Assembly (NCBI GenBank): GCA_021205385.1
Contig: JAJPXQ010000052.1
Coordinates: 1-36,192 of the forward strand
Reading direction: 5' to 3'
Source of the DNA: Lachnospiraceae bacterium
GTDB taxonomy: Bacteria; Bacillota; Clostridia; Lachnospirales; Lachnospiraceae
Length of the DNA: 36,192 nucleotides
This document shows positions 1,618 to 32,272 of this stretch, piece after piece; position 1 is the stretch's first letter, and each line of letters opens with the position of its first letter. The position numbers and the translations under genes were made by a program. A model generated the notes under the pieces. That model was not told the DNA's origin, did not search any database, and saw only the letters and a program-made list of their open reading frames with translations.

Positions 1618-2313
1618 ATGGTAGCAAGATTTATGAAGGACACCCCATATGAGAGAAGCGAGGCTGAGATGCAGAGGCCGCCTGGTTACAGGAACAGGGG
1701 GAGCGGTATGGTAGTAGGTCGGTATCCTTACAGCGCCCGCGACTTAGACTGTGCTTATTGTCTCTATAAAGGCAGGAAGAAGACCTGCGGTAAAGCGGGC
1801 GGATGTATCTTCCTTGCGGAGCGGCTCGCTGCAGGCTGTGTCCCCACAGAGGAATTGCTGGAAGCATTTACTGCAGAGGTGGATGAATTGGATTTTTCGG
1901 GTCGCATGTCCCATCTGATGGATGAGGAAGACGGCTTTTTCTTTGAACCGGAACACAGGGAGCGGTTCGAGAACCGGTGGGCTGGCTGTGCTCCCAGGAC
2001 GGATGCTTCCGCCATGTGTGCGGCGCTGTATCTTTTGGCGGCGGACCGTTTTCTCTGGAGACAGGCCGCAGCCGCCATCCGGACGGAGGGCATCCGGTTT
2101 TATGACATTCACATCCATGGTGTGGATCTGGATGGATATATCCTGTTCTACACAGCGAAGGATTTGTACCAGGGGACAAAGCATATCAGCCTGTCGGAAC
2201 TCACCGACCCGGAGTTGGTCAGCGACCGTACTTTCCGGCTGGCGGTCGGTGCATTCCTGATCCGGAGGTATGGGGTAGAAGTGCTGGCTGGTGAAAGGAG
2301 GGGCGGTTTATGA
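1618..2313 (+). CDS. Unknown protein with a CxxC-x8-C-x5-C cluster
   Basis: About 231 residues. Near residues 44-62 it has four cysteines (CAYCLYKGRKKTC followed by GKAGGC), a spacing that suggests a small metal-binding site. The remainder is acidic and soluble; the middle part is aromatic and alanine-rich (ALYLLAADRFLWRQAAAAI). I do not recognise the family. AAGGAGG (1601-1607) serves either ATG 1618 (10-base spacing) or GTG 1612 (4-base spacing); I chose the ATG. It is the first gene of the accessory operon and overlaps the ArdA-like gene by 4 bases, so the two are probably translated together. Confidence 0.75.
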   Translation: MVARFMKDTPYERSEAEMQRPPGYRNRGSGMVVGRYPYSARDLDCAYCLYKGRKKTCGKAGGCIFLAERLAAGCVPTEELLEAFTAEVDELDFSGRMSHLMDEEDGFFFEPEHRERFENRWAGCAPRTDASAMCAALYLLAADRFLWRQAAAAIRTEGIRFYDIHIHGVDLDGYILFYTAKDLYQGTKHISLSELTDPELVSDRTFRLAVGAFLIRRYGVEVLAGERRGGL

Positions 2314-3347
2314 TCCGTGTCTGTCTGGTAAACCTGAGTAGCAGACAGGTAGAATGGCTTGACTTGCCTGCTTCGGGTGAGGAACTGGAACTGATGAAAG
2401 CGAATCTGGGAGTGAAGGATTTTTCTGAATGTAATTATCGTTCGGCGCCGGATCTGGAAGATTACCTGCCCCGTTCTTGGAATGTGGAGGAATTGAATGC
2501 CCTTGCCTCGACCCTGGAACGAAAGGGGATCGGGGATTTTGAAAAAGACGGACGGAAGCTATTGGCAGTGCTGGAGGCGGAACTTCCGGAAACGATGAGC
2601 CAGATGCAGGAGATTGCAGAGCATCTGGAAGACTACAGCGTATTGCCGGATGAAATAGAAACCCCGGCGGATTATGCGCGGTGTGTGATAAGAGAGGGAA
2701 AGGTTCCGCTGGATGAACGGATTGCACCGTTCCTTGATTATGACGCTTTCGGGAGAAATCAGATGCACACAGATGGCGTTGTACAAACCTCGCAGGGGGC
2801 GGTGGTATGCAATACACACGCCCTTCCGGAATTTCCAGAGGAGCTGACAACGCTCAGGCTGTACAGCCCATTGCGGGCAGGAATGTATGTAAAGGATGAG
2901 TGGGGGAATTATCCATGCTATCCGGAAGAGGTTCATCCGAACGAATTGTGCCGCTATGAGGAAGCGATCCGCCGTCAGATCGGGATGGAGAGGCTGGATT
3001 CCGAAGGGGAGCGTGGCCTTGCTGTTTACCTCGGTAATAAGCGCCTGGAACGGAAGGTACACAGTCTGTCGCCGGACGTGGAAGCCTGGGAAGGAGAACT
3101 TTGGGGTGTGCTGGAAGTGAAATCTCATGGGGAACTTCAGGGAACAGAGCTGGATGCCCTGAAGGGTTTCTGGAGCGGGCAGGCGAGCGATGGCTGGGGT
3201 GAGGGCTTCGAACAGCGTGAGATTGCCACACCGGACGGGGATCTTTGTGTGAGTTTCTGGAATGCAGAAGACTACCAGATCCAGACGGAACAGGAGCTGA
3301 AAGGGCAACATACGTCTGACATGGCAATGCAGATGGGAGGAATATAA
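2310..3347 (+). CDS. ArdA-like antirestriction protein with an extra C-terminal domain
   Basis: 345 residues. The N-terminal half (about 1-165) resembles ArdA: it opens MIRVCLVNLSSRQVEWLDLP, has an ELNALAS segment, and carries the FLDYDAFGRNQ signature. ArdA is an acidic DNA-mimic that inhibits type I restriction enzymes after plasmid or ICE entry. ArdA is usually about 165-180 residues, so the remaining 170 or so form an added domain of unknown role containing GQASDGWGEGFEQREI, a motif I recall from other ICE accessory proteins. The start overlaps the upstream stop by 4 bases (ATGA). The tail ends MAMQMGGI, and the codons for that tail contain GGGAGG, which may serve as ribosome site for the next gene. 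Antirestriction function is inferred. Confidence 0.7.
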   Translation: MIRVCLVNLSSRQVEWLDLPASGEELELMKANLGVKDFSECNYRSAPDLEDYLPRSWNVEELNALASTLERKGIGDFEKDGRKLLAVLEAELPETMSQMQEIAEHLEDYSVLPDEIETPADYARCVIREGKVPLDERIAPFLDYDAFGRNQMHTDGVVQTSQGAVVCNTHALPEFPEELTTLRLYSPLRAGMYVKDEWGNYPCYPEEVHPNELCRYEEAIRRQIGMERLDSEGERGLAVYLGNKRLERKVHSLSPDVEAWEGELWGVLEVKSHGELQGTELDALKGFWSGQASDGWGEGFEQREIATPDGDLCVSFWNAEDYQIQTEQELKGQHTSDMAMQMGGI

Positions 3348-3768: not shown

Positions 3769-4785
3769 ATCAACAGTTTTATTTCCTGGGTTGGCGGAAA
3801 GAAGGCGCTGCGGGGACTGATCTATACGATGTTTCCGCTGGCATTCGACCGCTATATCGAGGTGTTCGGAGGAGGCGGGTGGGTGCTGTTCGGAAAACTG
3901 CCGGACTCCCGTTGCATGGAGGTTTATAACGATTATAATTCCAACCTGGCAAATCTGTTCTACTGTGTGAAGAACCGTACCGGAGCATTCTTAAAGGAGC
4001 TTGGTTTTCTGCCGATCAACAGCAGGGATGAATTTACCGTGATCCGGAATTTCCTGGATAAGCAGGAGCCGGATCTTCGCTTTCTGGAAGAAGAACTGGA
4101 GCTGGCAAAGCAGTATCTGCCGCCGCCGGGATATGAGGAGATCAGAGAAATCCTGCTTCGGAATGCGGAAGTAACAGATGTGAAGCGTGCTGCCGCTTTT
4201 TTTAAGCTGATCCGCTATAGCTATGGAAGTGGATGTACTTCCTATGGCTGCCAGCCGTTTGACGTGCGGAAGTGCTTCGATACAGTCTGGCAGGCGTCCA
4301 GGCGGCTTGCAGATACTGTGGTTGAGAATAAGGATTTTGAGGCGCTGATCCGGCAGTATGACCGGGAAAGCGCCTTTTTCTATTGTGACCCGCCTTATTA
4401 TGAGACAGAAGGACACTACGCGGTGGTTTTCCGGAAAGAAGATCATGTGCGCCTCCGGGATACCCTGGCCGGATGCAAAGGGAAATGGATGGTCAGCTAC
4501 AATGACTGCGCGTATATCCGAAGTCTTTATGAAGGCTACACTATCACCGCGGTCACTCGTCTCAACAACCTGGCACAGCGGTATGAGGGAGGCTGTGAGT
4601 TCCCGGAAGTGTTGATTACCAATTATGATCCGGCAGAAAGGGAGCGTGTGCAGCCAAGACAGCTCAGCCTGTTCGGGCTGTATGGAGAGGAAGATGAGGA
4701 TTACCAGACTTATAGGGCGTCGGACGCACCCATGAAAGGAGGAGATACAGATGGGAAAGCCGGTTTACAGGCTGATGGATTATAA
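3769..4785 (+). CDS. Orphan D12-class DNA adenine N6-methyltransferase, apparent AUC start
   Basis: Methylates adenine in DNA using S-adenosylmethionine. From the ATC at 3769 it is 338 residues. Family motifs in order: N-terminal SFISWVGGKKALR (residues 3-15, the AdoMet-binding motif X of the alpha class), EVFGGGGWVLF (31-41, motif I) and CDPPYYE (about 206-212, catalytic motif IV DPPY). The first ATG (3829) falls after the N-terminal motif and has no ribosome site, so starting there would remove an essential segment. ATC 3769 has an optimal spacing from a 13-nt perfect Shine-Dalgarno match. No restriction enzyme gene is adjacent, so it most likely protects the element DNA or marks it. Its 3' end overlaps the AbrB-like gene by 35 bases. 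Confidence 0.85.
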   Translation: MNSFISWVGGKKALRGLIYTMFPLAFDRYIEVFGGGGWVLFGKLPDSRCMEVYNDYNSNLANLFYCVKNRTGAFLKELGFLPINSRDEFTVIRNFLDKQEPDLRFLEEELELAKQYLPPPGYEEIREILLRNAEVTDVKRAAAFFKLIRYSYGSGCTSYGCQPFDVRKCFDTVWQASRRLADTVVENKDFEALIRQYDRESAFFYCDPPYYETEGHYAVVFRKEDHVRLRDTLAGCKGKWMVSYNDCAYIRSLYEGYTITAVTRLNNLAQRYEGGCEFPEVLITNYDPAERERVQPRQLSLFGLYGEEDEDYQTYRASDAPMKGGDTDGKAGLQADGL

Positions 4786-7422: not shown

Positions 7423-8307
7423 ATGCGATTATTAAAGAATAGGACTGTCATAGGCGTGGTCTGCATTGTGCTGGCACTCATCATCTGCTTCATCGTCACG
7501 CCGCTGTTTAATAAGACGATCAGCGATAAGACGGAGATCGTCCGCGTGACCCAGTCGGTGAAAGCCGGGGATGAGATCACAGAGGACATGGTAAAAACAG
7601 TGGAGGTGGGGAACTATAACCTACCTGAAGACGTGGTTCGGAACCTGGATACCGTCATAGGGAAGTATGCTTCCGCGGATCTGGAACCTGGCGATTATAT
7701 CCTCACATCCAAGATCGCGGATGAGCCTGCCGCTGAGAATGCATATCTTTATAGCCTGAACGGAGAAAAGCAGGCGATTTCCGTGACCGTCAAATCGTTT
7801 GCCAATGGCCTGTCCGGAAAGTTAAAGAGCGGGGACATCGTCTCGGTGATTGCGCCGGATTATAAGAAGCAGGGAACTACCGTGATCCCGCCGGAGCTGA
7901 AATATGTGGAGGTCATTGCGGTTACGGCGAACAGCGGGAACGATGCCAACACAGGGGATCTGGAGGAAGATGAGGACAGGGAGCTTCCTGACACGGTGAC
8001 GCTTCTCGTAACCCCGGAGCAGTCGCAGATTCTGGCGGAGCTGGAGGAGGACGGGACAATCCATCTTTCCCTGGTATACCGTGGGGAGCAGGAGAATGCC
8101 GCCCAGTTTATCGCGGCGCAGGATGCAGTGCTGGAGGAACTGTATGCAGAGCAGGAAGAAGCAGAAGCTGACGGAGAAGAAGTTACAGAAGAAAGCGATG
8201 GAGAAGAATCCGAGGATGTACAGGAGGCAGTGGAAAATCCGGAAGAAGCAGCATCCGGACAGGAGTCTGCCGGGATGGAGGAAAGCAGTGAAAACGGGGA
8301 GGAATAA
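7423..8307 (+). CDS. CpaB/RcpC-like pilus assembly protein (SAF domain)
   Basis: 294 residues. An N-terminal membrane helix (about 8-28) is followed by a SAF-type domain: VRVTQSVKAGDEITEDMVKTVEV, then IGKYASADLEPGDYILTSKI. A beta-rich CpaB-like region follows, with KSGDIVSVIAP and TVTLLVTPEQSQILAELEEDGTIHLSL. The last 70 residues are extremely Glu-rich. In Tad systems CpaB sits on the membrane and helps build the trans-envelope part; in Gram-positives, without an outer membrane, it probably spans the wall zone. GAGGAGG precedes the ATG. It lies in the usual place between peptidase and CpaE. Confidence 0.85.
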   Translation: MRLLKNRTVIGVVCIVLALIICFIVTPLFNKTISDKTEIVRVTQSVKAGDEITEDMVKTVEVGNYNLPEDVVRNLDTVIGKYASADLEPGDYILTSKIADEPAAENAYLYSLNGEKQAISVTVKSFANGLSGKLKSGDIVSVIAPDYKKQGTTVIPPELKYVEVIAVTANSGNDANTGDLEEDEDRELPDTVTLLVTPEQSQILAELEEDGTIHLSLVYRGEQENAAQFIAAQDAVLEELYAEQEEAEADGEEVTEESDGEESEDVQEAVENPEEAASGQESAGMEESSENGEE

Positions 8308-8310
8308 ACC

Positions 8311-9123
8311 TTGAATTTTATAAAGAACAGCATTTTCTCCCATGGGACAGGAGAAGCTCAGAATCAGTGGGAGCAGGGGAGTGAAAACCAGGTGCTGGCC
8401 GTATGGGGAAGCCCCGGTTCCGGGAAAACAACGGTGGCGGTCAAGCTGGCGGCGTACCTGGCGCAGCAGCGCCGGGATGTAGCGCTGCTCCTGTGCGACA
8501 TGAACACACCCATGCTCCCCTGCATCTGTCCGCCAGGCGATCTGGAGGAAGAACATTCCCTGGGAAGCATCCTGGCGGCCAGCCATGTGGCGGAGCCTCT
8601 GGTGCGGCATCACTGCATTACCCATAAGCGGCTCCGGCACCTGACGATTCTGGGGATGCGCAAAGGCGAGAATGAGTACAGCTATCCGCCTTATGAGAGA
8701 ACGCAGGCAGAGGAGCTGCTTTCCTGCCTTCGGGAGATTGCGCCCTTTGTCATTGTAGACTGTGGCAGTTATATCGCCAACGACATCCTATCTGCTATCG
8801 CATTGATGGAAGCGGATGCGGTGCTGCGGCTGGTGAACTGTGACCTGAAGTCTATCAGCTACCTGTCAAGCCAGCTTCCGCTCCTGCGGGAGAGCAAGTG
8901 GGATGCGGAAAAGCAGTACAAGGTTGCCAGTAACGTGCGGCCGAATGAAGCCAGCGAGCATATTGAACAGGTGCTGGGGAGCGTAGCATTCCAGATTCCC
9001 CATTCGGAGGAGGTGGCAGCGCAGTCTCTGGAAGGGAACCTTCTGAAAGAACTCGGCTTAAAGGACAGCCGTGGGTTCCGGAAATCCATCGATATGATCG
9101 TGCGGGAGGTGTTCGGGTGCTAG
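8311..9123 (+). CDS. CpaE/TadZ-like P-loop ATPase
   Basis: 270 residues of the MinD/ParA class. The P-loop is GSPGSGKTT (residues 33-41), followed by KLAAYLAQQRRDVALLLCDMNTP, a typical deviant-Walker neighbourhood; FVIVDCGSYI is the second conserved strand. TadZ/CpaE proteins localise the pilus machine at the membrane and pole. It starts with TTG 8311, behind GGGGAGG, 3 bases after the CpaB stop, and overlaps the TadA start by 7 bases, giving strong coupling. Confidence 0.8.
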   Translation: MNFIKNSIFSHGTGEAQNQWEQGSENQVLAVWGSPGSGKTTVAVKLAAYLAQQRRDVALLLCDMNTPMLPCICPPGDLEEEHSLGSILAASHVAEPLVRHHCITHKRLRHLTILGMRKGENEYSYPPYERTQAEELLSCLREIAPFVIVDCGSYIANDILSAIALMEADAVLRLVNCDLKSISYLSSQLPLLRESKWDAEKQYKVASNVRPNEASEHIEQVLGSVAFQIPHSEEVAAQSLEGNLLKELGLKDSRGFRKSIDMIVREVFGC

Positions 9124-10790
9124 GGGAAAAGCGGAGCAAAGGCGCATTTTACGGGGATTTTTCAGGGAGTGTTCGGGAAGAAAAAGCACTCCCTGAAAGA
9201 ACTTTGGAGGAGCTGATCCCTCACGACGAGGATGAAAAAGAAGCGGAGGAAGCAGTTCTCCATATGGAGCCAGAGTGGATGTCTTTTCAGAAGATGGACT
9301 CAGAAAAGGCTGAAGACCATCCAGTCTTACCTGTTCATACGGGAATTGTCATGCAGGATCTGGATAGCGAGGACGATACGTTGGAGGAAACAGAGGAGCC
9401 GGTGCTTAAGCGCAGGCAGACGCGGGCCTTGCGTACCCATGGCCTGTTCTTCGGGGAGGAGACGCAAACCCGTGATTTTTCCTCCGCTCTGCGGGAAGTC
9501 CAGGCATTTCTTTCCAAAGAATACAGCAGTCTTGTCACAGCGGAGGGAAGCGAAGAAGTAAAATCTCAGATTCGCCGCTTTGCAAAGAAATATATCCAGG
9601 ATCAGCGGATCGCCGTGGAAGGTATGACGGAGGAGGAGCTGCTCGACGGCATTTATTCGGAGATGGCGGAGTTTGGCTTCCTGACTCGGTACATTTACGG
9701 GGAGGGGATTGAGGAGATCGACATCAATGCCTGGGATGATGTGGAGGTGCAGTTTGCGGGCGGGCTTACGAAAAAGCTGGACGAGCACTTTGACAGCCCG
9801 GAGCACGCCATCAACGTGGTGCGCCGGATGCTACATGTCTCCGGGGTAGTGCTGGACGATGCCAGCCCCACCGTCCTGGGGCATCTCTCAAAAAATATCC
9901 GCATCGCGGTCTTAAAGACGCCGATTGTGGACGAGGATGTGGGTGTTGCGGCATCTATCCGGATTGTAAACCCGCAGAGCATGAAGAAAGAGGATTTTAT
10001 TGGTGGAGGCACGGCGACCGGCCAGATGCTTGACTTCCTTGCGGAATGCATCCGTTACGGGATTTCCGTATGTGTGGCAGGGGCGACCAGCTCCGGGAAA
10101 ACCACGCTCCTTGGGTGGCTCCTGACGACGATTCCGGACAATAAACGGATCTACAGTATTGAAAATGGTTCCAGGGAGCTGGCGCTGGTGCGCAGGGACA
10201 ATGGCAGGGTTGTCAATTCCGTCATCCATACCCTGACCCGCGACAGTGAAAATGAGCGCCAGCGGGTGGATCAGATCGCGCTCCTCGACATGGCGCTCCG
10301 CTTCAACCCGGACATCATCGTGGTGGGGGAAATGCGAGGGCCGGAGGCCAATGCGGCACAGGAGGCAGCCCGTACCGGCGTGGCAGTGGTGACGACGATC
10401 CACTCCATGAGCTGTGACGCTACTTACCGGCGCATGGTCTCTCTTTGCAAGCGGGCGGTTGATATGAGTGACGAAACCCTGATGGGCTTTGTGACAGAGG
10501 CCTATCCAATCGTAGCTTTTTGCAAGCAGCTGGAAAACCGGGAGCGACGCCTGATGGAGATTATGGAGTGTGAAATCCAGCCGGACGGGAGCCGCCATTT
10601 TCGCCCGCTGTTCCAGTACCAGATCCGGGAAAACCGGGTAGAGGGAGGAAAATTTGTGATTGAGGGGGAACACCGTCAGGTCAATGCGATTTCGGAAAGT
10701 CTTGCCAGAAGGTTCATGGAAAACGGGATGCCGCAGGAGATGCTCCGGGAGCTGCAAAAAATAGATAAGGGGGAGGAAAAGCCGATATGA
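9117..10790 (+). CDS. TadA/CpaF-family secretion ATPase
   Basis: 557 residues, longer than the usual 420-480 because of an acidic N-terminal extension of about 110. It powers pilus extension and retraction in Tad systems. Walker A GATSSGKTT is at 322-330, Walker B DIIVVGEMRG begins at 399, and the EAARTG and TTIHS motifs of the VirB11/TadA class follow. The upstream N1 domain holds YIYGEGIEEIDINAWDDVEV. Translation starts at GTG 9117, 7 bases behind GGGAGG and inside the CpaE gene. Its stop overlaps the TadB start (ATGA). Because no separate VirB11 is seen, it is the only hexameric traffic ATPase of this type in the window. Confidence 0.92.
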   Translation: MLGEKRSKGAFYGDFSGSVREEKALPERTLEELIPHDEDEKEAEEAVLHMEPEWMSFQKMDSEKAEDHPVLPVHTGIVMQDLDSEDDTLEETEEPVLKRRQTRALRTHGLFFGEETQTRDFSSALREVQAFLSKEYSSLVTAEGSEEVKSQIRRFAKKYIQDQRIAVEGMTEEELLDGIYSEMAEFGFLTRYIYGEGIEEIDINAWDDVEVQFAGGLTKKLDEHFDSPEHAINVVRRMLHVSGVVLDDASPTVLGHLSKNIRIAVLKTPIVDEDVGVAASIRIVNPQSMKKEDFIGGGTATGQMLDFLAECIRYGISVCVAGATSSGKTTLLGWLLTTIPDNKRIYSIENGSRELALVRRDNGRVVNSVIHTLTRDSENERQRVDQIALLDMALRFNPDIIVVGEMRGPEANAAQEAARTGVAVVTTIHSMSCDATYRRMVSLCKRAVDMSDETLMGFVTEAYPIVAFCKQLENRERRLMEIMECEIQPDGSRHFRPLFQYQIRENRVEGGKFVIEGEHRQVNAISESLARRFMENGMPQEMLRELQKIDKGEEKPI

Positions 10791-17488: not shown

Positions 17489-18391
17489 TTGTTCATATGG
17501 GATTTTGTCGCCGAGACTGTGCTGGGGCAGATCGTGGACTGGTTCTACGGGCAGCTGGTCGGTTTCCTCGGCGATTTTTTTATGCAGATGGGGAATATGG
17601 GAGCAGAGCTGTTTACCCTTTCCTGGGTGCAGTCCCTGGTGCTGTTCTTCTACCAGATGGCATGGGCTCTGTATGTGACAGGGCTGGTGGTCGCGGTCTT
17701 TGAGTGCGGGATCGAATACCAAAACGGACGGGGAAGCATCCGGGATACCGCGCTCAACGCGGTCAAAGGTTTCCTGGCCGTCAGCCTGTTCACCACGGTT
17801 CCGGTAGAACTGTATCAGTTCTGTGTGTCCCTGCAGGGGAGCTTTACTGCGGAGATTACCGGGCTGGGGGATGATTTTGGAACGGTGGCTGCGAATATCA
17901 TTGCGGAACTCCAGAATGCAGGGGACTGGGAGAGCGCGGCTTCCTCCGGGGTGTTTGGCGGGCTGAGGGCAATCACCAGCCCGATCCTCATCATCTTTAT
18001 TTTAATTATGATGGGCTATGCGGTTATTAAGGTGTTTTTTGCGAATCTGAAGCGCGGGGGCATTCTGCTCATCCAGATCTGTGTGGGGAGCCTTTACATG
18101 TTCAGTGTGCCAAGAGGCTATATCGACGGATTTGTCGGATGGTGTAAACAGGTGGTCGGTCTGTGCTTCACCGCATTCATGCAGGCGACAGTGCTGGTTG
18201 CGGGGCTGATGGTGGTCAAGGACCATGCGCTTCTGGGACTGGGACTGATGCTGTCGGCGGGCGAGATCCCAAGAATTGCCGGGCAGTTCGGACTGGACAC
18301 CGGCACGAGGGCAAATGTGATGGGTGCGGTTTACGCGGCGCAGGGAGTCGTGAACCTGTCGAAGACGGTCACCCAGGTAGTTGCGAGATAG
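17489..18391 (+). CDS. VirB6/TrbL-like polytopic conjugation protein
   Basis: 300 residues with about six hydrophobic segments, near 50-78, 92-108, 158-182, 188-202, 222-246 and 262-295. An N-terminal region without a signal peptide (FIWDFVAETVLGQIVDWFYGQLVGFL) comes first. This is the plan of VirB6/TrbL, the inner-membrane core of the T4SS channel. TTG 17489 is the start, with GGGAGG (17476-17481) 7 bases upstream. It sits in the usual order before VirB3 and VirB4, except that a methylase and a regulator gene are placed in between. Confidence 0.8.
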   Translation: MFIWDFVAETVLGQIVDWFYGQLVGFLGDFFMQMGNMGAELFTLSWVQSLVLFFYQMAWALYVTGLVVAVFECGIEYQNGRGSIRDTALNAVKGFLAVSLFTTVPVELYQFCVSLQGSFTAEITGLGDDFGTVAANIIAELQNAGDWESAASSGVFGGLRAITSPILIIFILIMMGYAVIKVFFANLKRGGILLIQICVGSLYMFSVPRGYIDGFVGWCKQVVGLCFTAFMQATVLVAGLMVVKDHALLGLGLMLSAGEIPRIAGQFGLDTGTRANVMGAVYAAQGVVNLSKTVTQVVAR

Positions 18392-18404: not shown

Positions 18405-19796
18405 ATGATGACAATGGGGAGCCTTTTTGACGGAATTGGCGGATTTCCGCTGGCAGCTGTGCATAATGGGATCGTGCCGGTCTGGGCGAGCGAGATCGAA
18501 GTGTTTCCCATGCAGGTGACGAAGAAGCGTTTCCCGGAAATGATCCATGTAGGGGACATTACAAAGCTGGACGGGGCAAAGCTGCCGCCGGTGGATGTAA
18601 TCTGCGGGGGCAGCCCCTGCCAGGATCTGTCTGTTGCGGGAAAACGTCAGGGGCTTTCGGGGGAACGGTCCGGCCTTTTCATGGATCAGGTGCGTATTGT
18701 GAAGGAGATGAGAAAAGCAGATGGGGGACGAAGGATACCAGATCACGCTGTTCGACCTAGATACCTCGTTTGGGAAAATGTTCCCGGAGCCTTCAGCTCC
18801 GCAGGAGGGGAGGACTTCCGGGCGGTCATTGAGGAGATCGTGCGGATCAAGGACTGTTCCTGTCATGTGCCTCGACCTGACGCCGGGCGCTGGGGATCTG
18901 CTGGGGCAGCCATTCTGGGAAATCAATTCAGCCTGGCTTGGCGAGTCCTGGACGCTCAATTCTGGGGAGTCGCCCAGAGACGCCGTCGTATCTTCCTTGT
19001 CGCAGATTTTGGAGGGCTCACCGCCTGCCAGATATTATTTAAGCAGGAAAGCCTGCCGGGGAATCCTGCGGAGATCGAGGGAACGGGGCAAGGAGCTGCC
19101 GGATCAGTTGAGGAGGGCGCTGGAGATCCAGGCGGGGTTGAAGTGGGGGTGAACGAGAACAATCAGCCGGTGCTGTTTGAAAACCATGGGATCGATGCAC
19201 GTTACACCGGGCCGCATGAAGTCGCGCCAACGATGTCAGCAAGATATGGGACGGGCGGAAACAATGTGCCTTTGGTGACGGAGGAAGCGGAGAGTTATTG
19301 TATAGCGGGAAATATCATCGACAGAGAAGTGAAAAACGGAGGGAACGGCCTCGGCTGTCAGCCGGATATTTCCTACACCCTGACCGGGATGGACCGCCAT
19401 GCTGTGTATAGCCGTCAGCGTAGCGATCTGTTCCTTGCCAACGAGGTGACAGCAACCCAGAGCGCCAGGCAGCATAAGGATGCCACAGATCTGGTCTGTC
19501 AGCCTTATCAGGATACAGTAGGAACCCTTGTGAATGCAGACCATAAGGGGATCAATAATCAGTATGTGGATGCGGACAAATGTGTTGTGGAAGCAAGAAA
19601 TCTGATCAGGCGGCTAACACCGCTGGAATGTGAACGCCTGCAGGGGTTCCCGGACGGCTGGACGGATATACCGGGCGCTTCTGACAGCGCCAGGTATAAA
19701 GCCCTTGGGAACAGCGTGGCAATTCCCTGTGTAGACTTTGTCCTGCATGGAATCGCTTATTTTCTGCGGGAACGGCAGGAAAATCAGCCGCCGTAA
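18405..19796 (+). CDS. Orphan DNA cytosine-5 methyltransferase (Dcm family), dual-coded in the middle
   Basis: 463 residues. Motifs in order: I GSLFDGIGGF (5-14), IV GGSPCQDLSVAGKRQGL with the catalytic Cys72, VI VWENVPGAF, VIII QRRRRIF, then a long variable target-recognition region, IX RRLTPLECERLQGFPDGW, X YKALGNSVAIPC. All catalytic parts are present, so it should be active. No restriction endonuclease is adjacent. Start options are TTG 18381, ATG 18405, 18408 and 18414; the ribosome site is weak for all, and I chose 18405. Between 18721 and 19152 a second frame also codes for a protein-like sequence (separate entry). It is inserted between VirB6-like and VirB3-like genes. Likely role: protecting transferred DNA from host restriction. 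Confidence 0.92.
   Translation: MMTMGSLFDGIGGFPLAAVHNGIVPVWASEIEVFPMQVTKKRFPEMIHVGDITKLDGAKLPPVDVICGGSPCQDLSVAGKRQGLSGERSGLFMDQVRIVKEMRKADGGRRIPDHAVRPRYLVWENVPGAFSSAGGEDFRAVIEEIVRIKDCSCHVPRPDAGRWGSAGAAILGNQFSLAWRVLDAQFWGVAQRRRRIFLVADFGGLTACQILFKQESLPGNPAEIEGTGQGAAGSVEEGAGDPGGVEVGVNENNQPVLFENHGIDARYTGPHEVAPTMSARYGTGGNNVPLVTEEAESYCIAGNIIDREVKNGGNGLGCQPDISYTLTGMDRHAVYSRQRSDLFLANEVTATQSARQHKDATDLVCQPYQDTVGTLVNADHKGINNQYVDADKCVVEARNLIRRLTPLECERLQGFPDGWTDIPGASDSARYKALGNSVAIPCVDFVLHGIAYFLRERQENQPP
18721..19152 (+). CDS. Gene wholly embedded in the cytosine methylase, +1 frame
   Basis: 143 residues in the +1 frame relative to the methylase. It starts at ATG 18721, with AAGGAG about 13 bases upstream. 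The sequence is protein-like: TLFDLDTSFGKMFPEPSAPQ, GRTSGRSLRRSC, VMCLDLTPGAGDLLGQPFWE, LSQILEGSPPARYYLS, ACRGILRRSRERGKELP. I recall homologues with the same blocks (TSFGK..PE.SAP, LSQIL...YYLS..AC.GILRR...RGK.LP) annotated as hypothetical proteins at cytosine methylase genes of clostridial phages and ICEs. The methylase frame is intact over the same bases, so this is not a frameshift. The protein is basic and cysteine-containing; function unknown. Alternatively it is a chance open frame, which I consider less likely. Confidence 0.65.
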   Translation: MGDEGYQITLFDLDTSFGKMFPEPSAPQEGRTSGRSLRRSCGSRTVPVMCLDLTPGAGDLLGQPFWEINSAWLGESWTLNSGESPRDAVVSSLSQILEGSPPARYYLSRKACRGILRRSRERGKELPDQLRRALEIQAGLKWG

Positions 19797-29640: not shown

Positions 29641-29665
29641 TTTTCTTTGGGAGTTGGGAGTTGCC

Positions 29666-32272
29666 ATGCCAAAACTGATTTTTACTTCCCGGTATCTTCA
29701 GAACGCACCGTCCGCGCAACTGGAAAATTATGTCCGTTATATCGGTACCCGTGAGGGCGTCGAAAAGATTGACGAGAGCAAACGTCTTCTGCCCGCGACC
29801 GAAAACCAGAAAAGTTTTATTCATCAGCTGATCCGTGATATTCCCGCAGCGAAAGATATGCTGGAATACACGGATTTTCTTTTGCGGCCAACGGTAGGAA
29901 ACACCTCAGAGTTTATTTCCAGCGCGCTGGATCAGAATCTTGAGACGATAACGGAAAGAGAGAATTATGTGGATTATATTGCGAACCGTCCGCGCGTGGA
30001 GCGAGTGGGTGAACATGGATTATTCACCGACGCAGGACAGCCGGTGGTGCTTTCACAAGTGCAAAAGGAGGTCGTGGAACATAAAGGTGTAGTCTGGACG
30101 CATGTGATCTCCCTGCGGCGTGAGGATGCCGCGCGGCTTGGTTATGATCATGCAGAACAATGGATGGCGCTGCTCCGTTCCAAAAGAGCCATGCTCAGCA
30201 AACATATGAAGATCGATAGCGCAAACCTGCGGTGGTACGCGGCGTTCCACAACGAATCTCATCACCCACATGTGCATCTGCTGGTATATTCTGCAAAGGA
30301 CAACGATGGCTACCTGACGGAGAAATCCATCGAAGCCATGCGCTCGGAGCTGGCGCATGATATTTTCCGGCAGGATTTTGCGCAGATTTATCAGGAGCAG
30401 AATCAGGCGCGCGCCGAACTGAAACGAGGAGCGGCGGATACCATGCAGGAGATGATGGATACGTTAAGAGACGGGACGCTGGTCAATCCGAAGATCGAAC
30501 AGATGATGCTGCAATTGTCAGAACGTCTTCAGAATACCAGCGGGAAAAAGGTGTACGGTTATCTGAAACGGGACGTGAAAAATCTCATTGACCAGATCGT
30601 GGACGAACTGCAGAAGGACAGCCGGGTGTCAGCACTTTACAGAGAGTGGGGGAAATGGCAGGATGAGATTCACCTGACTTACCGCAAGGAAGCGCAGCCA
30701 CTTCCTCCGCTTTCCCGGCAGAAACAATTCAAAAGTATTAAGAATATGGTGATCGCTGAAGCGTTGAAGCTCGGCGGTCATCATTTTACGTTTGAGGATG
30801 AAACGGAAGCGGACGCGGGTAGAGAATATGAAGCGTCCGGAGAATCGGAAGTCAATGAACGGGTTGACTTTCTGGAAGGGGAGCATTTCTTTTATGCCGC
30901 ATGGAATACCGCCTACAAAGAAGCGCGCAAATATTTCTATGGAGATTTTCTGACCAGACAGGATTTACAAAAAGCGTTTCAGCTCCTGCTCGCGGAAGCG
31001 GAATCCGGAAACGCTCTGGCAATGTATGATCTTGGGCGGATGTGCGCGGATGGATTGGGCTGTGAAGCCGATCTGAAAGCCTCGCAGGAATGGTATAAAA
31101 AGGCGCTTGGCGCATTGGAAGATTCGGAGAAGAAAGCAAAGAAAAGGGAACGTCCGTATCTCCAATATCGTATTGGGAAAATGTATGCGGCAGGAATCGG
31201 AACGGGGCAGGATGATGGAAAAGCTCTGGAATGGCTTTCTGGTGCGGCAGAGGCCGGACACAAGTATGCGCAGTATTCTCTTGCCGGTCTTTATTATCAG
31301 GGGAGGGGAATTGGGCAGGATTACACAAAGGCACTTGAACTTTATCAGTTGTCCGCCAGGCAAAGGAATCCCTATGCAGATTATGAGCTGGCGAAAATGT
31401 ATCAGCGCGGGATTGGCACAGAAAAAGAGAGTGTAAAGGCAGAGCAGCATTTCTGCGCTGCTTTTGAAGGCTTCCTAAAAATGGAAGAGCAGAGTCATGA
31501 GGATAAACTGCAGTACCGTCTTGGGCAGATGTTCCATACCGGAACAGGGACAGCGAGAGATGACAGTGCTGCAGAGAACTATTGGAGAAAAGCAGCAGGA
31601 CTCGGAAACCAGAATGCACAATATGCCCTTGGAAAACTCTGGCTGGAAAACCGGACAGGGGACATCCGGCAGGCGGTTGCATGGATTGAGAAGTCCGCAG
31701 CGGCAGGAAATGCAGCGGCGCAGTACACACTCGGCCGCATATACTGTGATGACGAATATGTACCGCAGGATCTGAAACGGGCGAGAAAGTGGTTTGTGCG
31801 ATCCGCGGATCAGAACAATGAGCTGGCGCTCTATCAGCTGGGAAAGCTGTATCTGTCCGAAGAATTTCAGGAGAAAGATGCCGGGAAAGCGGTAGAGTAT
31901 CTCACAGCTGCTGCAAAGATGGGCAACCAGTATGCGCAATATACGCTGGGGAAGCTATATCTTCAAGGAAAGAAAGTTCTGCAGGATAAGGAAAAGGCAG
32001 TATTGTTTTTGCAGATGTCTGCTGCGCAGGGCAATCCTTATGCGGAGTTCCTGTTGGAGCATATGGATGACGTTCAGAATCCTTCCGCGTTCCTCGCGGC
32101 GACACGGCTGCTGCGCGGATTGGAAAAACTGTTCCGGGAGGATTATCGAAAAGCGGAAGGAAGCGGCATATATCATATCGACCGGAAACGAAGAAGGAAG
32201 CTGTCCGAGAAAAAGCAGGCGCAGGGACACAGGCGGGACGACCAGGAATCAGTTCTGCAATTTTATAAATAG
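29666..32272 (+). CDS. MobP-type relaxase with a Sel1-repeat C-terminal domain
   Basis: 868 residues. The N-terminal 280 or so are the nicking domain: a basic start (PKLIFTSRYLQNAPSAQLEN, Y15/Y17 region, YIGTREGVE), then HNESHHPHVHLLVYS with the H202-x-H204 metal motif. It should cut oriT and stay bound to the 5' end. From about 445 to 810, roughly nine Sel1-like repeats (e.g. AQYTLGRIYC, AQYTLGKLYLQGKKV, pattern AxYxLGxxYxxGxG) form a helical solenoid for protein contacts. A basic end (RKRRRKLSEKK) follows. ATG 29666 is 5 bases behind GGGAG. MobP assignment is from motif pattern. Next gene is 17 bases on. Confidence 0.88.
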   Translation: MPKLIFTSRYLQNAPSAQLENYVRYIGTREGVEKIDESKRLLPATENQKSFIHQLIRDIPAAKDMLEYTDFLLRPTVGNTSEFISSALDQNLETITERENYVDYIANRPRVERVGEHGLFTDAGQPVVLSQVQKEVVEHKGVVWTHVISLRREDAARLGYDHAEQWMALLRSKRAMLSKHMKIDSANLRWYAAFHNESHHPHVHLLVYSAKDNDGYLTEKSIEAMRSELAHDIFRQDFAQIYQEQNQARAELKRGAADTMQEMMDTLRDGTLVNPKIEQMMLQLSERLQNTSGKKVYGYLKRDVKNLIDQIVDELQKDSRVSALYREWGKWQDEIHLTYRKEAQPLPPLSRQKQFKSIKNMVIAEALKLGGHHFTFEDETEADAGREYEASGESEVNERVDFLEGEHFFYAAWNTAYKEARKYFYGDFLTRQDLQKAFQLLLAEAESGNALAMYDLGRMCADGLGCEADLKASQEWYKKALGALEDSEKKAKKRERPYLQYRIGKMYAAGIGTGQDDGKALEWLSGAAEAGHKYAQYSLAGLYYQGRGIGQDYTKALELYQLSARQRNPYADYELAKMYQRGIGTEKESVKAEQHFCAAFEGFLKMEEQSHEDKLQYRLGQMFHTGTGTARDDSAAENYWRKAAGLGNQNAQYALGKLWLENRTGDIRQAVAWIEKSAAAGNAAAQYTLGRIYCDDEYVPQDLKRARKWFVRSADQNNELALYQLGKLYLSEEFQEKDAGKAVEYLTAAAKMGNQYAQYTLGKLYLQGKKVLQDKEKAVLFLQMSAAQGNPYAEFLLEHMDDVQNPSAFLAATRLLRGLEKLFREDYRKAEGSGIYHIDRKRRRKLSEKKQAQGHRRDDQESVLQFYK

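Follow-up and report, generated by a model that had tools for sequence, protein, structure and literature searches.

Within the C5-cytosine DNA methylase gene of a conjugative element from a Lachnospiraceae bacterium, a second reading frame, shifted by +1, encodes a protein of 143 residues. Our preferred reading, which we hold to be probable, is that this nested frame is a real and ancient gene with a start of its own, whose product is a second methylase chain that carries a core displaced from behind motif VIII and assembles with the long chain. The window (the whole stretch of 36,192 nucleotides analysed) lies on contig C19 of a 3.1 Mb genome and holds a conjugative element, with TrbL, a T4SS coupling protein, MobL relaxase, ArdA-like protein and D12 adenine methylase. 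The C5 methylase gene comes after TrbL (17489-18391), and its frame is open to 19796 from either 18381 (TTG) or 18405 (ATG). The long chain has what is looked for in a C5-cytosine methylase, namely a match to the PF00145 profile together with motifs IV, VI, VIII, IX and X (Table 1); we take PCQ to be motif IV with the catalytic Cys, ENV to be motif VI, QRRRR motif VIII, RRLTPLECERLQGFP motif IX and GNSV motif X. Elsewhere in the same element, the ArdA-like gene (2310-3347) and the D12 N6-adenine methylase gene (3829-4785) likely form, besides the C5 methylase, its antirestriction set.

Table 1. Features of the methylase gene and of the gene nested in it (window positions).
Feature	Position	Strand	Basis
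C5-cytosine DNA methylase, frame 0, 463 aa + stop	18405..19796	+	PF00145, E 7.8e-47
Methylase PCQ (motif IV)	18615..18623	+	translation
AAGGAG, probable Shine-Dalgarno of the nested gene	18702..18707	+	sequence; also in split relatives
TGA, last stop of the +1 frame upstream of the nested ATG	18709..18711	+	sequence
Nested +1 gene, 143 aa + stop	18721..19152	+	ORF reading; conservation across relatives
N-terminal part of the nested protein (residues 1-88), less conserved; overlaps the methylase as far as motif VIII	18721..18984	+	recoding test
Methylase ENV (motif VI)	18774..18782	+	translation
Methylase QRRRR (motif VIII)	18975..18989	+	translation
Conserved nested core, residues 89-139 (LSQILE...YYLSRKACRGILRRSRERGKELP...ALE)	18985..19137	+	family conservation
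Methylase RRLTPLECERLQGFP (motif IX), frame 0	19608..19652	+	pattern and translation
Methylase GNSV (motif X), frame 0	19707..19718	+	pattern and translation

The nested ORF starts with ATG, is offset from the methylase by exactly +1 and overlaps methylase codons 106-249; the TGA that last interrupts its frame upstream is formed by methylase codons Met102-Arg103. The first-pass annotation had described a 143-codon +1 frame opening at an ATG behind AAGGAG, inside a methylase frame that is intact across the overlap, and both parts of that description hold: ENV and QRRRR are present, and so are motif IX- and X-like blocks. The gap between AAGGAG and the ATG is 13 nt, which is long for a Shine-Dalgarno spacing; it is 7 nt in the relatives L041, L048 and L053. 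Residues 90-143 of the product are basic, with a pI of 10.9. As a null model, the methylase was rewritten in synonymous codons at its own usage, and 200 such recodings of codons 111-239 had 3.5 stops in +1 on average, with the frame left open in 1% of them. Considered alone, the open frame of the window is therefore mildly improbable and weak evidence, barely beyond chance. For this reason relatives were compared, and it is this comparison that is decisive.

For a fair set, relatives were fetched with methylase residues 1-105 only, which lie upstream of the overlap. Eight of the 148 loci obtained had less than 450 nt downstream and were left out, and the nested protein was found in the +1 frame at 131 of the 140 usable loci and in a frame other than +1, counted from the methylase start, at seven. 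In one of the seven (L192) the frames have been separated into successive genes, and the other six show a frame change as by insertion or deletion. The protein is absent from two loci, L266 (15 stops in that frame) and L270 (12). The homologues are thus mostly without +1 stops, the check on which the first-pass annotation had staked its proposal, and the protein is retained at 138 of the 140 loci selected by the methylase. Wider searches with the nested product gave 127 phage and 526 plasmid records by tblastn, while its profile found relatives in 361 of 362 stretches of species genomes and in at least 591 of viral contigs; these sets, like the architecture counts below (n = 403), were selected by the nested protein itself and are no measure of how common it is. 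Some loci are the same place fetched twice. The first 33 loci checked all have the nested frame at an identical +1 offset from the N-terminal match of the methylase, and a methylase part lies in or beside the match at 401 of 403 matched loci (duplicates included), the exceptions, L405 and L410, being cut by contig ends. The statement in the first-pass annotation that similar blocks occur at phage and ICE methylase genes was correct, and the ‘coherent blocks’ noted in the nested product are real, the second and third falling within the most conserved part of the family.

Selection was examined in two sets of sequences in which the nested match is in +1, the methylase frame is intact across it and mutual nested-protein identity is at most about 80%: one of 179 sequences and one of 90, the latter methylase-selected and non-redundant; neither includes L266 or L270, from which the protein is absent. 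In the set of 179, identical methylase residues outside the overlap share their codon 1.03-1.20 times as often as expected; the ratio is 1.27-2.0 at methylase codons 91-195 and 2.4-2.8 at codons 196-240 and returns to 1.13 from codon 241, so that the reduction of synonymous change that had been predicted for the overlap is strong. Stops in +1 are depleted to the same effect in the set of 90, with 4 observed against 95.8 expected at codons 110-150, 0 against 71.2 at codons 151-195 and 3 against 99.5 at codons 196-238. Four control blocks outside the overlap have 193, 211, 237 and 206 stops in +1 against 192.3, 219.1, 269.9 and 223.6 expected, and there is no comparable depletion of +2 stops in the three overlap blocks (127, 139 and 231 against 186.6, 135.9 and 241.3).

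Conservation of the nested protein itself points the same way. In the core, identity in the nested frame is 0.592 against 0.211 for the recoding null (methylase frame in the same place, 0.408), and 117 of 120 pairs lie above all 60 recodings. For the N-terminal part (methylase codons 106-195), identity is 0.337 against a null of 0.232 and 58 of 120 pairs lie above the recodings; with this smaller gain, support for the first 88 residues is less firm than for the core. The recodings are exceeded by 4 of 120 pairs in one control block and by 3 of 102 in another. Both frames are under selection, and selection on the nested frame acts at the protein level. The sequence features sought in an overlapping gene were found: stop depletion within the overlap, reduced synonymous change, initiation signals of its own and amino-acid conservation beyond the constraint of the host frame, which is clear for the core and weaker in the first 88 residues. 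The proposal of a true overlapping gene with both frames under selection is supported by the stop depletion and the synonymous constraint. We find it scarcely credible that there is no gene here and that the conservation stems from an RNA element, composition or chance. Such an account could draw on the window ORF, which alone would be open by chance in about 1% of recodings, but strong stop depletion is confined to +1 and to the overlap, and the protein stays conserved after the two frames have come apart, when synonymous change is free. As a separate candidate, an RNA element was rejected, since the fold of 18985-19150 is no better than that of shuffles (z +1.22).

The start signals of the nested gene are hidden within methylase codons and are conserved. 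The first nested start codon in the set of 90 is ATG in 61 sequences, GTG in 23 and TTG in 4, with none within 30 codons in 2. A Shine-Dalgarno-like element (AGGAGG/AGGAG/GGAGG/GAGG/AGGA/AGGT) lies 6-10 nt upstream in 66 of 88, a raw count taken without a shuffled control; it is farther off in 4 of 88, the window included, and none of the motifs tried is present in 18 of 88. Independently of this count, methylase codon 103 is AGG in 52 of 90 sequences, with synonymous identity 2.4 times that expected, and codon 107 is AAT in 51 of 90, which creates the nested ATG (1.7 times the expected synonymous identity). These signals bear on an account in which programmed +1 frameshifting from the methylase frame yields a short methylase with a different tail and the nested frame has no start of its own. 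In its favour, the strongest constraint starts just after motif VIII, and the indel-bearing loci L254, L267 and L401 have the N-terminal part and the core in a single frame. Against it, the +1 frame is open from the ATG onward, with the near absence of stops before the core given above (4 and 0 against 95.8 and 71.2) and with conserved start codons and Shine-Dalgarno-like elements; moreover, the nested-frame protein of L192 is a separate ORF, whose first start, a GTG, overlaps the upstream stop and has AGGAGG 13 nt before it. We regard a frameshift tail as very improbable and reject it as the leading explanation, in view of the frame that is open from the ATG onward and of the conserved start signals.

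Natural rearrangements of the locus show the nested gene in other states. Our architecture survey by motif patterns covered 410 loci, of which 403 had a match (duplicates included). In 238 the nested gene lies in a whole methylase; for 113, with the N-terminal part in frame 0, either motif IX was unrecognised or the DNA came to an end. A further 21 have an N-terminal part that stops before motif IX and a nested frame that runs into the methylase C-terminal half with motif IX. The core is in frame with motif IX in seven, with no frame-0 N-terminal part recognised; one of these is the ordinary methylase L359. The remaining 24 fall in other classes and, apart from the contig-end cases L405 and L410, include a methylase part. 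Starts of split loci were read for 19 of 20 given (19 of the 21 plus L460; L282 was missed by the pattern). Their nested-frame ORF of 320-602 aa holds the methylase C-terminal half, and in all 19 an ATG is among the first five codons of this ORF; in 12 of 19 the ATG stands behind AGGAGATG, as in the window, with AAGGAG in the leader. The nested ATG, or one nearby, is likely used in these relatives, because the C-terminal half must be translated.

Comparison of the de-overlapped L192 with L093 over 126 codons gives pS 0.81 and pN 0.25, a contrast that the other two frames do not show, and nested copies that have been pulled apart evolve as ordinary protein. In L093 (993-2474) and L103 (2447-3613) a fusion of the nested protein with the C-terminal half is intact, with 11 synonymous and 5 non-synonymous differences between the two, and the N-terminal methylase part is apparently frameshifted at the same place in both. 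A further locus, L407 (G599 C1:1285000-1290000), is a single-chain methylase whose own frame includes the latter half of the nested core. On the chromosome of that genome, five places match alike, with open frames of 438-627 aa. Could copies of the L407 type be natural re-fusions in a multi-copy element? Taken together, the nested protein is closely associated with the methylase and is fused to it in places, although the fusions could follow in part from the shared DNA position.

What the core might be is suggested by ordinary methylases. Searching 299 genomes, the nested profile matched an ordinary single-chain C5 methylase, L359 (per-genome E 3.2e-6), in which the matching segment lies in frame right after motif VIII: LKKVLEKHVPEKYYFSAKAVQGMLKN, against the nested-family consensus LSQILEENVPEKYYLSRKACEGILRR, with 26.4 bits for the core profile. 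Up to KYYFS, L359 aligns with the solved chains 3me5 and 3lx6, which are Dcm-type enzymes. Only three of 27 ordinary methylases sampled by Pfam alone reach at least 3 bits with the core profile, scoring 6.0-9.6 bits at the same place. Weaker in-frame cases are L412, L413 and L415, and two more, L466 and L469, were found by a profile that already contained L359. The segment is present in none of the 179 nested-type long chains. Other comparisons were weak or negative. An averaged post-VIII profile of 26 ordinary methylases (L421, L432 and L440 left out beforehand, the latter two because they are nested-type) did not find nested ORFs significantly, with 13 in the top 100 and a best match (E 4.5) that is not nested. 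With hhalign, the core against ordinary methylases gave a probability of 12% and E 0.0024 when three sequences found by the nested profile were included, and the post-VIII block without those three gave E 0.085. Seven hand-picked segments returned nested ORFs as 100 of the top 100 matches in the reverse direction, a result of little weight, as it is circular, the segments having been chosen for their similarity to the nested core. Neither the nested nor the core profile matched a methylase among solved structures. We conclude that the nested core is likely, if not certain, to be homologous to the post-VIII segment of some ordinary C5 methylases, as judged by sequence similarity.

Family searches gave little else by which to name the product. 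No Pfam or NCBIfam model matched the window protein at E up to 1. An antirestriction or defence identity was rejected, because among 25 family members searched against Pfam, NCBIfam and PADLOC no antirestriction or anti-defence family was matched beyond chance, the single matches having E of 0.02-0.1. PHROG phrog_16143 (‘DNA methyltransferase’, 139 positions) matches 22 of 25 nested-family members (best E 9.7e-10), which suggests that gene callers took the nested frame as a gene in some phages; the label makes no mention of a nested second frame.

The first-pass annotation had offered two roles for the product, a methylase partner or a second antirestriction factor. The partner has proved the better guess, given the methylase part at nearly every matched locus and the fusions to the C-terminal half, and the antirestriction factor has gained no family match. 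A real, translated product that stands apart from catalysis, as an antirestriction or anti-defence protein or a methylase regulator merely travelling inside the gene, seems to us rather unlikely. The ArdA-like and N6-adenine methylase genes of the same element would fit such a role, as would the basic core and the L093/L103 fusion, which is intact despite its apparently frameshifted N-terminal methylase part and is not what a pure subunit role predicts. Set against this are the lack of any known antirestriction or defence family in the searches above, the methylase part at 401 of 403 loci with only weak core matches away from a methylase (L463, L464, L465, L467, L468 and L470; E 2.7e-4 to 0.01), fusion partners that are always methylase parts and the resemblance of the core to a methylase segment.

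A nested, trans-acting methylase subunit is the reading we favour as probable; that the small chain is translated in the cell, binds the long chain and is needed for methylation is inferred. In this mechanism, the nested protein would be made from a start of its own within the methylase gene, and its core would be the methylase post-VIII segment (L-x-D-I-L-E-x-x-V-x-x-K-Y-x-L-S) displaced into the +1 frame. The long chain would comprise motifs I-VIII, a variable linker in place of the segment, the target recognition region and motifs IX-X, and the small nested chain would supply the missing segment, the two assembling into an active (or properly regulated) enzyme. The apparent conservation of the linker would then be a shadow of the nested frame (ILFE under YYLS). 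A stronger form, on which we are evenly divided, holds that there is a large unrecognised class of phage and ICE cytosine methylases, P1 Dmt included, that are obligate two-chain enzymes, with the second chain written out of frame into the gene for the first, and in which no single frame encodes an active enzyme; a segment of the enzyme would have moved into a second frame of its own gene and been kept there across phyla.

Nested out-of-frame genes and two-chain C5 methylases are kinds of arrangement already known. The gene for the small chain of M.EcoHK31I is nested out of frame in that for the large chain, and M.EaeI is, like M.EcoHK31I, a two-chain C5 methylase. The window resembles M.EcoHK31I in having a small chain nested out of frame in a large one. 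M.EcoHK31I consists of two natural polypeptides, with a large chain that lacks one motif, held by the small chain (PMC3404938), and is called ‘naturally split’ (PMC3439449). Compared by description only, its small chain has motif IX and its large chain motifs I-VIII, TRD and X, whereas in the window the long chain keeps motif IX and the small chain would carry the post-VIII segment. M.AquI has motifs I-VIII in its larger subunit and the rest in the smaller (PMC3404938). Such a division is seen in the split relatives L036, L037, L041, L377 and others (21 of 403 by pattern); unlike M.AquI, the window methylase is whole in frame 0, with only the presumed post-VIII segment on a second chain. Phage genes wholly nested in another frame have precedents in lambda Rz1, which lies in Rz and is the partner of its host gene's product, and in phiX174 E; these are lysis genes, with no methylase involved. 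Gene E of phiX174 is nested in gene D (PMC8227390). In a literature search of titles and abstracts, none of the papers listed describes a C5 methylase of a phage or ICE with another gene nested in it. What is new here is the likely displacement of a segment, the breadth of the arrangement, which extends over ICEs, plasmids and phages of Bacillota, Actinomycetota, Pseudomonadota and a cyanobacterium, and a series of natural states in which the gene is nested, split, separated or re-fused.

The nested frame is also found in phage P1 (dmt), the P. aeruginosa phage zjk6, Vibrio phage VchM-138, cyanophage Pan4, the Mycobacterium phages Dallas and Thibault and a Corynebacterium element; for the two Mycobacterium phages, a pattern search did not find motif IX in the same frame-0 ORF. 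Over 31 core codons in 11 records from several phyla, nested-frame identity exceeds methylase-frame identity in 55 of 55 pairs and the nested core scores higher than any of 300 recodings in 54 of 55 (the exception being Corynebacterium versus zjk6), identities that are selected, as the records were chosen via the nested protein. In P1 (AF234172.1) the nested ORF runs to 67201 from a possible ATG start at 66728 that has GGAG 7 nt upstream; it is absent among the 32 features listed around dmt in that record of 535 features. In Thibault the nested frame is annotated as the hypothetical protein gp104.

The result concerns a conserved protein in hundreds of sequenced elements that has mostly escaped annotation, probably through the avoidance of nested genes by annotation pipelines. 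It also matters when phage and ICE methylases are cloned and tested, as codon optimisation or truncation would destroy the nested gene, and the construct could then seem inactive. More generally, this is a case, with good support, of overlapping frames that have both persisted for long in mobile elements of bacteria, and its de-overlapped, split and re-fused natural states show how overlaps can dissolve.

Several further observations were made along the way. A second, diverged group of C5 methylases (L355/L462, L357, L358 and L360) has a +1 ORF with a similar SLxxIL...KYFLS core, which suggests that the nested arrangement may be older or may have had more than one origin. The Mycobacterium phage methylase is interrupted by an HNH-containing stretch in L361 (Schatzie, 285-1808) and L362 (Thibault, 281-2082), and the annotators of Schatzie state that intron boundaries are not determinable there. 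Inside the conjugative element of the window, RcpC/CpaB and type II/IV secretion ATPase genes at 7423-10790 are parts of a Tad/Flp-like pilus cluster, and the MobL relaxase (29654-32272, 872 aa) carries six Sel1-repeat stretches in a single protein.
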